From assembly GCA_947628665.1 (NCBI GenBank), contig CANRAU010000009.1, positions 19,743-83,742 on the forward strand: 64,000 bases of DNA, written 5' to 3'. The notes beneath the pieces are model-generated. The model was given only the letters and a program-made list of their open reading frames with translations, was not told the origin of the DNA and did no database searches. Within the stretch, counting starts at the first letter, position 1. Each line of letters begins with the position of its first letter. Made by a program: the position numbers and the translations under genes. This document shows, in pieces, positions 29,354 to 35,848 of this stretch. The DNA is from an uncultured Clostridia bacterium. Its GTDB lineage: Bacteria; Bacillota; Clostridia; Oscillospirales; Acutalibacteraceae.

Positions 29354-29511
29354 ACGCGCGCCCCCTTTCCAAAAAAATATTTAGCCGTTTAACTGTTTGC
29401 CTATTGTACGCCCGAAAGAGGGAAAAGTCAACAAAAATATTGTGAACAATTTGGTCAAAAAAGAAAATTTTCGCGTTTTTCACAAAAAGTCTCGCTCTTT
29501 TTTCGATTTTG

Positions 29512-29537
29512 ACCCCATTTTGGGGACATTTTTGTCC
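29512..29537. promoter_or_regulatory. Two overlapping short inverted repeats upstream of the phage cassette
   Basis: ccccattttgggg followed by ggacatttttgtcc. Confidence 0.5.
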
Positions 29538-29597
29538 GCTTCGGGGTATAGGTGAAAGGGTCTTTCAAAAACAACATCGGAAAGGATGATCCGCACA

Positions 29598-30080
29598 ATG
29601 AAAAATACGCTTTCGCAAAAACAGCTTACGTTCTGCCGTCAGTATGTGCGCACGCGCAACGGGCGCGAGGCCGCCGCTTTCGCGGGGTTTTTGCTTTTTC
29701 CCGAAAAGGCCGCTGCACGGCTGCTGGCAGACGCGCGTATACAGGGCGAGATCCAAGCGCTGGAAGCGGACTGCCGCGCTTCGCGTGCAGAGCTGATCGC
29801 GGGCTATCGACGGCTCGCCTTCGGTTCGACGGCGGACGCGGTGCGCCTGCTTTTGCAGTGCGACGACGTCCCGCCCGACCCCGATACGCTCGATTTGTTT
29901 GCGGTCTCGGAGATCAAGCGGCCGAAAGGCGGCGGCATGGAGATCAAATTCTTTGACCGACAGCGCGCACTCGACAAGCTTTCGGAGCTGCAAAGCGGCA
30001 ACGCCGACAGCGCGCTGCCCTTTTACCGTGCGCTCGAACGCTCTGCGGCGGCGCTGCACGGAAACGGAGACGAGCTGTAA
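29598..30080 (+). CDS. Phage terminase small subunit
   Basis: MKNTLSQKQLTFCRQYVRTRNGREAAAFAGFLLFPEKAAARLLADARIQGEIQALEAD: TerS-like; ATG at 29598 behind AAAGGA. Confidence 0.85.
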   Translation: MKNTLSQKQLTFCRQYVRTRNGREAAAFAGFLLFPEKAAARLLADARIQGEIQALEADCRASRAELIAGYRRLAFGSTADAVRLLLQCDDVPPDPDTLDLFAVSEIKRPKGGGMEIKFFDRQRALDKLSELQSGNADSALPFYRALERSAAALHGNGDEL

Positions 30081-31342
30081 TGCAGAGTACGGAATTTCAG
30101 AGCTTTTCTCAAAAACAGCTGATCCTGCTTTCCTGGTGGTGTGAACAAAGTCCCTTTCATACGTTTGACGCCGTCATTTGTGACGGCGCGGTGCGCAGCG
30201 GCAAAACCGTCTGTATGTCGCTTTCGTTTGTGTTTTGGGCGTTTTACCGTTTTTCGGATCAGGCCTTCGCCCTGTGCGGGAAAACCGTGACGGGGCTGCG
30301 GCGCAATGTGGTCACGCCTTTGCTGCCTCTGCTGCGGGAGTTGGGGTTTGAATGCCGCGAGCAGGTCTCCAAAAATATTTTGGAGCTGCGCAAGGGCGGC
30401 AGGACAAACCGTTTCTACCTGTTCGGCGGCAAGGACGCCTCTTCCGCCGCGCTCATTCAGGGGATGACCCTTGCGGGCGTAATGCTGGACGAAGCCGCGC
30501 TGATGCCGCGCTCGTTTTGCGAGCAGGCGATCGCACGCTGTTCGGTGGAGGGTTCGCGGCTGTGGTTCAACTGCAACCCCGAACACCCCGCGCACTGGTT
30601 TTACAGAGAATGGATCTTAAAGCGCGAACAGAAAAACTGCCTCTACCTGCACTTTACCATGCAGGACAACCCCTCCTTATCCGAAGCCATGCGCGAACGT
30701 TACAAAACGCTGTACAGCGGGGCGTTCTACGCGCGGTTTGTCGAGGGAAAATGGGTCGCCTGCGAGGGGCTGGTATACCCGTTTTTCGACGCGTCCTATC
30801 TCTATGACGTGCCAAAGTCCTTTGACCGCTTTATCGTCTCGTGTGACTACGGAACAGTCAACCCCACCTCTATGGGGCTTTGGGGACACAGCGGCGGACA
30901 CTGGTACCGCATCGACGAATTCTACCACAGTTCAAAAGCGAAAGGCTTTCAAATGACCGATGAGGAATATTACCGTTCGCTTTGCACGCTCATCGGCGGC
31001 AGAACCGTGGACTGTGTGATCGTAGACCCGTCGGCGGCGTCCTTTATCGAGTGCATCCGACGACATGGGGAATTTGCCGTGCGCCGCGCGGACAACGACG
31101 TCCTCGGCGGCATCCGCCAGACCTCGGACGCGCTCAAAAGCCGAGAGATCCGCATTTGCAAAACCTGTCCCGACATCATCCGCGAATTTTCGCTCTACCG
31201 CTGGGATGAAAGCGCGCGTTACGACGCGGTGAAAAAGGAAAACGACCACGCGATGGACGATATGCGCTATTTTGTCGCAACCGCGCTGAAAACCACGGAC
31301 GACGACTTCTTTGTCGTCGCCTGTCCGAGAGAAAGGAGGTGA
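30080..31342 (+). CDS. Phage terminase large subunit (PBSX-like)
   Basis: FDAVICDGAVRSGKTVCMSLSFVFWAF (Walker A), LAGVMLDEAALMPRSFCEQAIARCSVEGSRLWFNCNPEHPAHWFYREWI, SCDYGTVNPTSMGLW, VDCVIVDPSAASFI (nuclease region). Confidence 0.95.
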   Translation: MQSTEFQSFSQKQLILLSWWCEQSPFHTFDAVICDGAVRSGKTVCMSLSFVFWAFYRFSDQAFALCGKTVTGLRRNVVTPLLPLLRELGFECREQVSKNILELRKGGRTNRFYLFGGKDASSAALIQGMTLAGVMLDEAALMPRSFCEQAIARCSVEGSRLWFNCNPEHPAHWFYREWILKREQKNCLYLHFTMQDNPSLSEAMRERYKTLYSGAFYARFVEGKWVACEGLVYPFFDASYLYDVPKSFDRFIVSCDYGTVNPTSMGLWGHSGGHWYRIDEFYHSSKAKGFQMTDEEYYRSLCTLIGGRTVDCVIVDPSAASFIECIRRHGEFAVRRADNDVLGGIRQTSDALKSREIRICKTCPDIIREFSLYRWDESARYDAVKKENDHAMDDMRYFVATALKTTDDDFFVVACPRERR

Positions 31343-31346
31343 GTCG

Positions 31347-32513
31347 GTGTCGAAATTCCGAAAACAACCCGCTCCCGAAAAAACGCCTCTGCAAACGCCG
31401 GTTTTGGCGAGCACGGGCGCGTACGGTCTGTCCCCCTTTTCCGCTTTGGACAGCTACAGCCCGCCTCCGTATCTCAACAGCGACCTGTTTTCCACGCTTC
31501 GTGAAGCCATTCCCATCATCGATACCGCGATCTACAAGCTGGTGCGGCTGACGGGCGGCTTTCAGGTCGTCTGCGCGGACGAACGCTTTGACCCGCTGCT
31601 CGAGCGATTTATCGCCCGCGTCCCGTCGGACAGCGGCGGTATCTCCTTACAGAGCTTTGTCGACTGCTTTTTTGAGCAGCTTTTGACCTACGGTACGGCG
31701 ATCGCGGAAATGGTTCCCGACCCGGACGGCGGTATCGGGTATCTCTACAACGCCCCGCATACGGATTATCTGCTGCGGCGCAGCAAAACGGATTTTCGCC
31801 GCGTGGAGGTCTTAAAGGCCTCGCTCCCCGAAACGCCCCTGCCCCGACAGGATCTGCTGCTCATCAGCACCCTCCATCCGAAGCCCGGCCAAGTTTACGG
31901 CACGTCGCTGCTTGCGGGACTGCCCTTTGTCAGCCGGATCCTCATGCAGATTTACAACGCCATCGGGCAAAACTGGGATCGCGTGGGCAACGTTCGCTTC
32001 GCCGTAACCTACAAGCCCTCGGACGACGCGGGCGGCAAGGCGTACGCCAAGGAACGCGCCATGCAGATCGCTTCGCAGTGGGGCGAAGCCATGCGCAGCC
32101 GTGAAGTGCGCGACTTTGTCGCCGTCGGCGACGTGGACATCAAGGTCATCGGCGCGGACAATCAGATTTTGGACAGCCAAGTCCCCGTGCGCCAAATGCT
32201 CGAACAAATCGTGGCGAAGCTCTCCATTCCGCCGTTTATGCTGGGGCTTTCCTGGTCGACCACAGAACGCATGGCAGACGAGCAAACCGATATTCTGACC
32301 ACGGAGCTGGAATACTACCGCCGCCTGCTTACACCGGTCATCGAGACCGTGTGCCGCACGCATCTGCGCGCTTACGGCTGTACGGCGGACTGTTCGGTCG
32401 TATGGGACGATATAACCCTTAAGGATACCGTTGAGGAAGCCACCGCACGCCATTTGGACGCCGAGACTCAAAGCATTTTGGCAGGTCTCCCGCCGAAGGA
32501 CACAACAGAATAA
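31347..32513 (+). CDS. Phage portal protein
   Basis: GTG start behind GAAAGGAGGTGA; REAIPIIDTAIYKLVRLTGGFQV...QIVAKLSIPPFMLGLSWSTTERMADEQTDILTTELEYYRRLLTPVIE. Confidence 0.88.
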   Translation: MSKFRKQPAPEKTPLQTPVLASTGAYGLSPFSALDSYSPPPYLNSDLFSTLREAIPIIDTAIYKLVRLTGGFQVVCADERFDPLLERFIARVPSDSGGISLQSFVDCFFEQLLTYGTAIAEMVPDPDGGIGYLYNAPHTDYLLRRSKTDFRRVEVLKASLPETPLPRQDLLLISTLHPKPGQVYGTSLLAGLPFVSRILMQIYNAIGQNWDRVGNVRFAVTYKPSDDAGGKAYAKERAMQIASQWGEAMRSREVRDFVAVGDVDIKVIGADNQILDSQVPVRQMLEQIVAKLSIPPFMLGLSWSTTERMADEQTDILTTELEYYRRLLTPVIETVCRTHLRAYGCTADCSVVWDDITLKDTVEEATARHLDAETQSILAGLPPKDTTE

Positions 32514-32526
32514 GAAAGGAGTGCCT

Positions 32527-33495
32527 ATGCAAAAGCAATTTTCCATTCAGCCGCAGGACGCCGACGTCAGCCCCGAAATGCTCGAAAAAATCAACCGCTA
32601 TTCCCGCAAAACGCTGACAGCAAGCGAGGTTTTCGTGTTTTCCGCCGTACTTTGCGACAACGAGATCGACCGCGATTTTGAATGCTTTACGCCGGACGCG
32701 CTCAAAACCCTTGCGCCGCTGTTTGAAGGCAAAACCGTCATTCAAAACCACAGTATGCAGACCGACGATCAGAGCGCGCGCACGTTTTATACCGAAGTGT
32801 TGACCGATCCGTCGCGCACCACGGCAACGGGCGAGGCGTACACCTATTTGAAGGCTTACTGCTATATGCCGAGAATCCCCAAAAACGAAACTTTGATCGC
32901 CGAGATCAACGCAGGCATTAAAAAGGAGGTTTCGGTCGGCTGCGCCGTCGCAGAACACAAATGCTCGATTTGCGGCAGTGTGGAGGAGGTAAGCCCCTGT
33001 AAGCATCAGCGCGGCAAGCGTTACGGCGGTACGGTCTGTCACTACACGCTTGAAAAGCCGACAGACGCTTACGAGTGGTCGTTTGTCGCCGTTCCCGCAC
33101 AGAGAAACGCGGGCGTGACCAAGGGCTTTGCCGACGCGGACGCGCTTTGCAAGCAGTTCGGCGAAACAAACGCCGAGCAGATCACGGTCAGCCGCGAAGA
33201 GGCCGCGGGTTTTGCAGAGCTCGTTTCGTCGCTCAAAAGCGCCGCTGCGCTCGGAGAGGAATACACCGCTTTGCTGCGGGAAAAGGCCGTTTGCGCGCTG
33301 CTCGGGCGGCTGCCCGAACTGCAAAGCGAGCAGGCAGAATCCCTTTGCGCGCCGCTGAAGCCCGCCGAATTAAAGGCGCTTTGTGCCGCGCTTTCGGGAG
33401 ACGCCGCGCAAAAGAGCGCGCACCTGCCCCAGCTTTACACCGCCAAAGCGCGGGAAACGGACGTCCCCGCCGACAACAACGCGTTCAAATTTTAA
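32527..33495 (+). CDS. Phage prohead protease/scaffold-like protein
   Basis: Sits between portal and capsid; DFECFTPDALKTLAPLFEGKTVIQNHSMQTDDQSARTFYTEVL...EVSVGCAVAEHKCSICG; C-term coiled scaffold-like region. Confidence 0.7.
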   Translation: MQKQFSIQPQDADVSPEMLEKINRYSRKTLTASEVFVFSAVLCDNEIDRDFECFTPDALKTLAPLFEGKTVIQNHSMQTDDQSARTFYTEVLTDPSRTTATGEAYTYLKAYCYMPRIPKNETLIAEINAGIKKEVSVGCAVAEHKCSICGSVEEVSPCKHQRGKRYGGTVCHYTLEKPTDAYEWSFVAVPAQRNAGVTKGFADADALCKQFGETNAEQITVSREEAAGFAELVSSLKSAAALGEEYTALLREKAVCALLGRLPELQSEQAESLCAPLKPAELKALCAALSGDAAQKSAHLPQLYTAKARETDVPADNNAFKF

Positions 33496-33516
33496 ACACA
33501 GAAAGGATGTTATTCC

Positions 33517-34518
33517 ATGGCAAATTTTGAAACCATTAAGCTCGACAAGGGCTTATACACCTCCGGCAAAGGCTTTACCGCAGCCTTAGAAGAGGTCGAT
33601 CCCTCCGAAGACTATAAGGGGACGTCCCTCGAAGGTCTCGATGCGTTCGAGCGACAGCTCAAGCGTTTTGACATCAAGCTGCACGGCGCGGCGAGCGACT
33701 GCGTGGAAAAATTCTTCAAGACCACCGACAGCGCCGCGCTCTTCCCCGAATACATCGCCCGCGCGGTGCGCAAGGGCTTGGAGGAAGCCGATCTTCTGCC
33801 GTATATCGTCGCGACTACCACGAACATCAACGGTTTGGATTACCGCACCATTGCCTCCATTCCGACCGAGGCGGAAAAGGAACTGCAGGAGACCGAAGAG
33901 GGTTCGGCGATCCCCGAAACCGTCGTCCACACGCAGGAAAATCTCGTAAAGCTCAAAAAGCGAGGCCGTATGCTCGTCGCCTCTTACGAAGCCATTCGTT
34001 TCCAGCGTTTGGATCTGTTCACCGTTACCCTGCGCCAGATCGGCGCATACATTGCGCGCACCCAGCTCAAAGACGCCGTGACCGTGCTCAAGGACGGCGA
34101 CGGCAACAGCAACGCCGCGCCCACGACCTCTTTGGGCGGCAAAGCCGTTTCGTATGCCGCTTTGGTGGATTTCTGGAACAGCTTTGACCCCTATATGCTC
34201 AACACCATGATCGCCGCGCCCGATATGACGGCGGCCATTCTCAAACTCGCGGAAATGCGCGACGCGGCGGCGGGGCTTTCCTTCCACGGCGACGGCAAGG
34301 TCGTCACGCCTCTGGGCGCGAACCTCTTTAAGAGCAGCGCTGTCGAGGCAGGCACACTCATCGGTTTGGACAGGACCTGTGCTTTGGAGCAGGTCACGGC
34401 GGGCGGCATTCTCACCGAGTACGACAAGCTCATCGACCGTCAGCTGGAGCGCGCGGCGATCTCGCAGATCTCCGGATTCTCCAAAATCTATACGGACGCT
34501 TCGCGCGTGCTTTCTTAA
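33517..34518 (+). CDS. Phage major capsid protein (HK97-like)
   Basis: Position after protease; 333 aa; AVRKGLEEADLLPYIVATTTNINGLDYRTIASI...MLVASYEAIRFQRLDLFTVTLRQIGAYIARTQ. Confidence 0.82.
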   Translation: MANFETIKLDKGLYTSGKGFTAALEEVDPSEDYKGTSLEGLDAFERQLKRFDIKLHGAASDCVEKFFKTTDSAALFPEYIARAVRKGLEEADLLPYIVATTTNINGLDYRTIASIPTEAEKELQETEEGSAIPETVVHTQENLVKLKKRGRMLVASYEAIRFQRLDLFTVTLRQIGAYIARTQLKDAVTVLKDGDGNSNAAPTTSLGGKAVSYAALVDFWNSFDPYMLNTMIAAPDMTAAILKLAEMRDAAAGLSFHGDGKVVTPLGANLFKSSAVEAGTLIGLDRTCALEQVTAGGILTEYDKLIDRQLERAAISQISGFSKIYTDASRVLS

Positions 34519-34539
34519 AGCACAAAAGGAGGCTCGTTT

Positions 34540-34908
34540 ATGATTGATGTGATCGGGGTAACGCGGCTGCTGACCCGTTTTTCCGCGTTGACGGAGGATT
34601 TGCTCGCCGACGCGATGCCTGTTGTCGCCGTCGCCTGCGCAGAATGCACCGACAAGCTCAAAAAGCCCGCATATGCCGAAGAACCCGCTGTGCTGGAGGC
34701 GGTCGCCGCGCTTTGCAATTACCGTCTGCTTCTGCGCAGCGAACAGGTGCGCGAGGGTACGACCGTTTTTAAAGCGGGTGACGTTTCGGCGACCGTGAAT
34801 TTGACGGTCATGCTCGAAACTGCGCGTGCGCTGCGCGACGATGCATTTTTGGCCGCGGCGCAGTTTTTTGAGGATTCGGATTTTTTGTTTACGCAGGTAG
34901 TCGCATGA
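34540..34908 (+). CDS. Phage head-tail connector-like protein
   Basis: Small acidic/helical ORF after capsid: MIDVIGVTRLLTRFSALTEDLLADAMPVVAVACAECTDKL. Confidence 0.6.
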   Translation: MIDVIGVTRLLTRFSALTEDLLADAMPVVAVACAECTDKLKKPAYAEEPAVLEAVAALCNYRLLLRSEQVREGTTVFKAGDVSATVNLTVMLETARALRDDAFLAAAQFFEDSDFLFTQVVA

Positions 34909-35246
34909 GGCAGGGGTTCAACCGTTACGGAAAAAGCGTATACCTTTCGGACGGAGCGGGCTGGTATTCTCCGTACTTTAAGGCATTTTTGCAGCCGCTG
35001 CGTTACAAAAACAAAATGTATCTGGAAGGCCTCTATACGCCCATCGGCCGCGATATAAACGGCCTGTATTTGTACATCGGTCCGTCCGACCACGATTTGA
35101 CCAGGCTGTCGTCCGCGCACGCGCGTGTACACGACAGCGAAGCCCGAGAATATGTGATCCAGCGTGCGGAAAAGGTGTTCCGCGGGGATAAGATCTACTA
35201 TGTCTGGGCAATTTTAAAGGAAGTAAGTGAGGGAACAGCCAAATGA
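34905..35246 (+). CDS. Phage head-closure-like protein
   Basis: 4-bp overlap with preceding and following genes; 113 aa; positional inference. Confidence 0.5.
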   Translation: MRQGFNRYGKSVYLSDGAGWYSPYFKAFLQPLRYKNKMYLEGLYTPIGRDINGLYLYIGPSDHDLTRLSSAHARVHDSEAREYVIQRAEKVFRGDKIYYVWAILKEVSEGTAK

Positions 35247-35674
35247 ATTTTTCCACCACCATCCTCCCGCTGCTGATTTTGGCGATCAAGGAAGACCCGA
35301 ATTTTGAGAATGCAACGGTGACCGCCGCCTACGAAAATGACATCAAGCCCTACCCCGTGACCAAGCCGATCGTGGCCGTGTCCATAGACAAAGAGGTCAT
35401 CGGCAGCCGAATCGTAACGGTCGCCGAAAACGGCGAGCGGACGCTTTCCAAGCAGCGGCAGATCGACCTGACGTTCAAGGTCAGCATTTTTGCGCCCTAT
35501 GAAAGCGGCGCGAACACCTGTTTTTCCATGTTTGAGAACATGTCTGCCATGCTGATGTTCAACGACGCTTTTCACATTGTCAACGGCCGCTGTTTCGACT
35601 GCAAGTACGTGCGCGACTGCAACGCCTTGCAGCTGGACGCGGAATTTATCTGGCGAACGTACAGCGACAGCTGA
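35243..35674 (+). CDS. Phage tail-terminator-like protein
   Basis: MNFSTTILPLLILAIKEDPNFENATVTAAYENDIKPYPVTKPIVAVSIDKEVIGS; last gene of the cassette; positional plus weak pattern. Confidence 0.5.
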   Translation: MNFSTTILPLLILAIKEDPNFENATVTAAYENDIKPYPVTKPIVAVSIDKEVIGSRIVTVAENGERTLSKQRQIDLTFKVSIFAPYESGANTCFSMFENMSAMLMFNDAFHIVNGRCFDCKYVRDCNALQLDAEFIWRTYSDS

Positions 35675-35716
35675 TCTGCATCGGTGTGTAGGCTTCGGTA
35701 GCCGAATCTGCAAACG

Positions 35717-35742
35717 ACCCCGCGCCCAAAAGGGTGCGGGGT
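35717..35742 (+). terminator. Terminator closing the phage head cassette
   Basis: accccgcgccc-aaa-agggtgcggggt followed by tttctt. Confidence 0.8.
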
Positions 35743-35848
35743 TTTCTTGTAGATAATTCTTAACTAAAACGTGCCGGGGCGGGCAGGCGCGAACAGGGGC
35801 AAACAAGTGCATATAGGTGTCAGCAGGAACAGGTCAAAACAGGAATGC

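Follow-up and report, generated by a model that had tools for sequence, protein, structure and literature searches.

A phage head and packaging cassette of eight genes is carried in the chromosome of an uncultured bacterium of the genus Candidatus Fimenecus. The cassette is vertically inherited and under purifying selection in conserved chromosomal sites, and this inheritance extends across hundreds of related species. We consider it probable that it is the reduced, head-only form of an order-wide, vertically inherited and domesticated phage particle that would be GTA-like in function. The DNA analysed here, referred to as the window, comprises 64,000 nucleotides of one contig (C9) of a 2.0-Mb genome (G000) that is 99% complete.

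Gene content of the cassette

Eight open genes on the + strand extend from position 29586 to 35674 of the window, with overlaps between them, and are closed by an intrinsic terminator (Table 1). The terS stop and the terL start coincide at 30080, ATGA overlaps are present at 34905 and 35243, and the genes have good Shine-Dalgarno sites. These junctions, the profile matches and the 12-bp terminator stem bear out the first-pass annotation of this DNA, which had described an open, tightly packed, terminator-ended head and packaging cassette. Its description of chromosomal flanks and of a missing integrase also holds in the window: the cassette is flanked by MarR/ABC/ABC genes on the left and by Sua5-uppP-prfA on the right, and neither an integrase nor a tRNA gene was found in the window. 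The G+C content of the cassette is that of its surroundings. The cassette contains no tail, fibre, holin or endolysin gene, and the integrase and regulatory module of the capsid-forming PICI type is absent from the cassette and its flanks. In the loci that were read the flanks were ordinary chromosomal DNA, with no att sites or replication genes belonging to the cassette.

Table 1. Features of the cassette and its upstream region, in window coordinates.
Feature	Position	Strand	Evidence
Upstream region with conserved CTATNGGTGAAA-like box directly 5' of terS	29354..29585	+	Box at about 29537-29557
TerS, terminase small subunit, 164 aa	29586..30080	+	phrog_51 E 5e-12, PF03592 E 1e-9
TerL, terminase ATPase/nuclease, 420 aa	30080..31342	+	phrog_2 E 9e-44, PF03237
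Portal protein	31348..32513	+	phrog_30703 E 5e-118
Putative prohead protease with zinc-finger insert, probable scaffold C-terminus	32527..33495	+	phrog_16951 E 2e-89 (labelled unknown)
Major capsid protein, HK97-type, 333 aa	33517..34518	+	phrog_3922 E 3e-96, PF25209 E 9e-18
Probable head-tail adaptor (g6), 122 aa	34540..34908	+	Place between capsid and stopper, kept in relatives
Probable head stopper (g7), 113 aa	34905..35246	+	AlphaFold2 pLDDT 82.5; Foldseek
Predicted tail terminator (g8), gpU-like, 143 aa	35243..35674	+	AlphaFold2 pLDDT 86.8; Foldseek
Intrinsic terminator of the operon	35716..35743	+	12-pair stem, 9 G-C pairs, T run

The N-terminal HTH-like half of TerS is present in the window and is missing from 5 of 41 related TerS proteins. 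The Walker A (G36-T43), Walker B (D137-E138) and nuclease (D256, D316, D393) residues of TerL are kept in at least 93% of 57 homologues. Translation of the portal gene starts at a GTG preceded by AGGAGG; the mechanical ORF opens at 31311. The fourth gene had been annotated as a protease/scaffold, an assignment that can be refined. With H75, S136 and its Cys/His ligands conserved across 59 homologues, the protein resembles an S78-type prohead protease carrying a zinc-finger insert, and it probably is such a protease. The capsid profile gave no match among solved structures.

The last three genes, previously described as connector-like, had no useful sequence match in profile searches, and for the adaptor-like gene no family was matched. 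The best sensible Foldseek matches of the g7 model were phage stopper and neck proteins, and these were weak (E 0.04-0.2). The g8 model matched both the collars of R-pyocin, diffocin and monocin and a set of tail terminators, among them those of lambda, T5 and Milano, at E-values of 1e-4 to 3e-3; its top match was 2gjv (E 6e-6). The predicted structure of g8 is thus a tail-terminator fold, which makes the earlier description more specific for this last gene.

The CTATNGGTGAAA-like box is common to the window and about 11 related loci, and within the clade of the window it lies upstream of terS in L044, L085, L088, L086, L045, L087, L046 and L091. Most members of this clade, although not the window, also have an inverted repeat (CAACA-N13-TGTTG) upstream of terS. 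The box or the repeat is possibly an operator or an alternative promoter.

Distribution of the cassette

The capsid gene was found in 36 of the 39 genomes of Candidatus Fimenecus, almost always as one intact copy; one genome of the genus is DVGI01000035 (Ca. F. excrementavium). Of the three negative genomes, two have a completeness of 68% and 81%. The eight genes keep their order in all loci of the genus that extend far enough to reveal it, and since this order recurs in dozens of genomes it is not due to chance. When genomes of the same family that were at least 90% complete were searched, 193 of 294 contained the capsid gene, representing 70 of 107 genera. Two of them had two copies and all others had one, and no internal stop was present among the matches listed. 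At the order level the capsid gene occurs in several further families and widely in two of these (f14 and f26). In f26, which we take to be Ruminococcaceae, 119 of 247 genomes matched; in five of these the match was weak and lay in a PBSX-like prophage, and a further two were very divergent. Weak capsid matches in genera g278 and g308 (E 1e-5 to 1e-4) were rejected as PBSX-like prophages that differ from the cassette element.

Named phages were considered as relatives and rejected. The best 'phage' match, MT835508.1 (L098), is filed as 'Bacteriophage sp.' and is a piece of bacterial chromosome that carries rnf and ribosomal-protein operons, MarR-ABC genes and the cassette. Such cassette-bearing contigs are also listed as viral in IMG/VR. 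MT835952, MT835769, MT836604 and MT838993 are unannotated faecal scaffolds rather than named phages; MT835952 and MT836604 hold an extended form of the element. The assemblies of G034, G035, G013 and G025, and also of G659 from f26, break within the capsid gene, perhaps as a result of its conservation between co-occurring species.

Vertical descent and selection

The left flank of MarR-ABC-ABC is common to about 20 loci of the genus, and another same-genus group has its own, different set of common left neighbours. On the right, the element is immediately followed by an hflX-like GTPase gene in about 13 other genera. We compared a TerL plus capsid tree of 31 genomes with the tree of the core gene prfA. 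The two trees had 11 of 16 well-supported splits in common, and label shuffles gave an average of 0.3 common splits with a maximum of 3. The single strong conflict was among near-identical taxa.

Median dN/dS values were 0.07 for TerL, 0.08 for portal, 0.12 for protease, 0.12 for capsid, 0.10 for g6, 0.09 for g7 and 0.16 for g8, compared to a median of 0.07 for the surrounding chromosomal ORFs. These values, of which the first-pass annotation had called for those of TerL and capsid, indicate purifying selection across the cassette. For the same genome pairs the dS of the cassette was similar to or somewhat lower than that of neighbouring genes.

Capsid distances tracked those of prfA weakly (Mantel r of 0.21, compared to 0.63 for TerL). 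Capsid divergence was poorly matched to genome divergence in G009/G010/G038 and in G026/G033, and in one trio prfA was near-identical with a capsid identity of about 73-75%. The mismatch between capsid and prfA points to an exchange of alleles or to diversifying pressure that acts locally on the capsid; judged from these distances, some allele exchange is likely.

As a piece of a tailed-phage gene order that lacks genes for lysis, replication and integration, the cassette could be taken for an ordinary decaying prophage remnant that was recently truncated. However, the same intact fragment is present in all but three of the 39 genus genomes, dN/dS is far below 1 in all eight genes, and the listed capsid matches are free of internal stops. 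Broken genes, patchy occurrence and relaxed selection, the marks of decay, were not found for the cassette. This reading was rejected on the basis of occurrence in the genus and family, intact frames and dN/dS, and the probability that we leave to it is negligible. Recent truncation, which had been put forward earlier, is rejected because the head-only state is common to the whole genus. Occurrence in a single strain, a neighbouring att-flanked prophage remnant and frameshifts in close relatives had been named as signs against a maintained module. Instead, the cassette is present in many species, no such remnant was seen beside it and no frameshifts were found in close relatives.

Tail genes in relatives and in the genus

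A sheath, a LysM protein, a hub, baseplate J and a gp48-like gene follow the head genes in all seven f14 loci and in 9 of 28 f26 loci. In other genera of the same family the LysM/baseplate J/gp48 set is present without a sheath in 23 of 34 loci, with a detectable hub in 22 of these, and most of the family carries the head together with a fibre and a PBSX-type baseplate that lacks a sheath. In head-only loci of several other genera, g8 is fused to the C-terminal domain of a tail fibre (L048, L052, L058, L061, L104 and L106). These fusions look as if the intervening baseplate genes had been deleted, and the product is possibly a neck-mounted receptor-binding protein. From this gene content the relatives appear to form a reductive series that leads from a sheathed tail through a sheathless baseplate and a fibre fused to the neck to the head only. 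The sheath-bearing loci (L164-L170 of f14 and L152-L158 of f26) lack a recognisable tape-measure gene of normal length in the interval from sheath to baseplate, and this absence suggests that the contractile tail is unusually short. In the extended locus L104 the cassette is immediately followed by a tRNA-like stretch and a tyrosine integrase/regulator region, which looks like the insertion of a mobile element next to it.

In the genus of the window, hub, LysM, baseplate J and gp48-like genes were found downstream of the head in 0 of 29 loci, some of which are on contigs that end nearby. Same-genus matches to 'fibre' queries corresponded to the terminator half of fused queries rather than to fibre. 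A hub model, searched without a positive control, gave no match in genomes of the genus. A hub-like match in G000:C22 was rejected as chance, as it sits within an mnmA-like gene. Because the g8 model has the fold of a tail terminator and the best matches of g7 are stopper and neck proteins, the neck can be regarded as complete. The genus therefore retains every part of the neck, down to the terminator that would normally cap a tail, with no adjoining tail gene.

One explanation for selection on terminator and neck genes that no tail gene adjoins is a split GTA, in which the head operon works with an unlinked tail/lysis operon elsewhere that is too divergent to be recognised. There is a precedent in FpGTA of Faecalibacterium prausnitzii (Borodovich et al., Nat Commun 2026; PMC12946183), whose operons I and II are about 125 kb apart (PMC12946183). 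However, a baseplate-J model that recovers the cognate gene from about 76 of 200 genomes of the family found none in the genus of the window: there was no match in G000, and the matches in two other genomes of the genus were divergent and prophage-like. In addition, a direct scan of about a quarter of G000 (504 kb) with 260 tail queries gave no credible match. We regard a split GTA as possible but rather unlikely.

A capsid-forming satellite that borrows the tails of helper phages, in the manner of cf-PICIs, would likewise have head and packaging genes and lack tail genes. A possible source of tails exists in the same species, as G000:C7 contains at about 61000-89000 (L222 and L223) an apparently complete siphophage prophage with head genes, a tape measure and a GH25-like lysin. 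This prophage has its own terminase, portal and capsid, is unrelated to the cassette and contains the one tape-measure gene of the genome. A tape measure is recognisable in just 5 of the 39 genus genomes, and there is therefore no constant helper. Moreover, the cassette has no integrase, regulator or att sites, occupies a fixed chromosomal site and descends vertically. A satellite dependent on helper tails, which the first-pass annotation had considered, is consequently very unlikely.

Comparison with known systems

Our literature search found one relevant published account (PMC12946183), and the system that it describes, FpGTA, is the closest described system to the cassette. FpGTA particles are 40 nm in size, have no visible tails and contain 8.4-9 kb of random host DNA, and the second operon encodes baseplate, fibre, receptor-binding protein, holin and endolysin (PMC12946183). 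As published, the FpGTA head operon has the order TerS-TerL-portal-scaffold-capsid (MCP), as does the cassette. Both occur in related gut Clostridia, are near-universal in the genus, lack adjoining tail/lysis genes and have a head operon without integration, replication or regulatory genes. They differ in that a second operon and DNA-filled particles are described for FpGTA, whereas the cassette is known here from its genes. Also, the N-terminus of the cassette TerS is still DNA-binding-like, in contrast to what is described for TerS in FpGTA. FpGTA is found in Faecalibacterium and not in Gemmiger or Subdoligranulum (PMC12946183), whereas the element described here is distributed over several families and hundreds of species. 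The likeness to FpGTA, whose operon I proteins include RCH50849.1 (capsid) and RCH50851.1 (portal), is drawn from its published description; by this analogy, membership of the cassette in the FpGTA type is a strong lead.

The cassette also resembles RcGTA and its relatives in Alphaproteobacteria in consisting of vertically inherited, domesticated structural genes of a tailed phage under purifying selection, with no self-replication genes. The main cluster of RcGTA includes a full siphovirus-like tail, and its control is by CtrA/GafA. The cassette is head-only and resides in another host phylum. The baseplate of the relatives (LysM/XkdP-like protein, hub, Mu gp45-like protein, sheath initiator, baseplate J and Mu gp48-like protein) resembles the type found in PBSX of Bacillus subtilis and in Mu. 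PBSX is SOS-induced, has sheath, tube, tape-measure and lysis genes, and kills; the tail is absent from the window copy. Capsid-forming PICIs share with the cassette that head and packaging are encoded and the tail is not. They are mobile elements that encode an integrase and regulators and rely on helpers for mobilisation, whereas the cassette shows no integrase, regulators or signs of helper mobilisation.

Proposed function

Vertical chromosomal inheritance, purifying selection and the lack of integrase, replication genes and att sites, all of which characterise GTAs, were found for the cassette. As it is inherited from mother to daughter across hundreds of species, the cassette is likely to be a device that transfers genes or carries DNA, not a dying virus. 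Its packaging enzymes are intact and its neck is complete; it descends vertically, is under selection and has no self-propagation genes. Together these features lead us to a domesticated DNA-packaging particle. Of the interpretations offered in the first-pass annotation, the maintained module or domesticated GTA-like device is the one that is supported: the cassette is single-copy throughout the family, its frames are intact, it descends vertically under purifying selection, and its neighbours are fixed. The truncated prophage is rejected and the satellite is unlikely.

The domesticated capsid might instead serve another purpose, such as blocking phages that infect the cell, storing DNA or forming a PBSX-like killing particle. 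The genus has lost tail and fibre and yet strictly keeps head and packaging genes, and relatives have PBSX-type baseplates, both of which agree with such a role. However, TerS, the TerL nuclease and the whole neck have been retained; this points to DNA packaging, for which a decoy capsid would have no use, and a killing particle would require a tail. We consider another purpose improbable.

For a GTA-like particle, formation, DNA packaging and delivery are what we infer for the cassette. Induction, perhaps at stationary phase, would start particle building, and protease/scaffold and capsid would assemble a small procapsid on the portal. TerS and TerL would pump in any host DNA at hand, and adaptor, stopper and terminator would close the neck. 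Lysis would then free particles carrying a few kb of host DNA. Without the baseplate and fibre that were lost in the genus, the particles probably have no tail or are served by an unlinked, too-divergent tail operon comparable to FpGTA operon II. Delivery would occur by uptake of the protected DNA or via the second (tail) operon. A tentative possibility is a GTA without a tail, in which stable, terminator-plugged heads hold host DNA and transfer it or feed competent sister cells. Such a tailless GTA would stand at the end of a reduction in steps, which is still visible across the order.

To our knowledge, few GTAs are known outside Alphaproteobacteria, and FpGTA has so far been described from Faecalibacterium only. 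The reductive series among the relatives would allow the direct question of which tail parts a GTA needs. GTA-like packaging is also reported for other gut Clostridia, e.g. Ruminococcus callidus, with DNA of 4.6 kb and no gene cluster identified (PMC12946183), and the element described here is a candidate gene cluster for such taxa, in which particles contain random DNA (PMC12946183). If our explanation is true, capsid-borne gene flow would be a basic trait of these gut bacteria, because about two thirds of the species in the family have kept the packaging element intact and it is present in two sister families.
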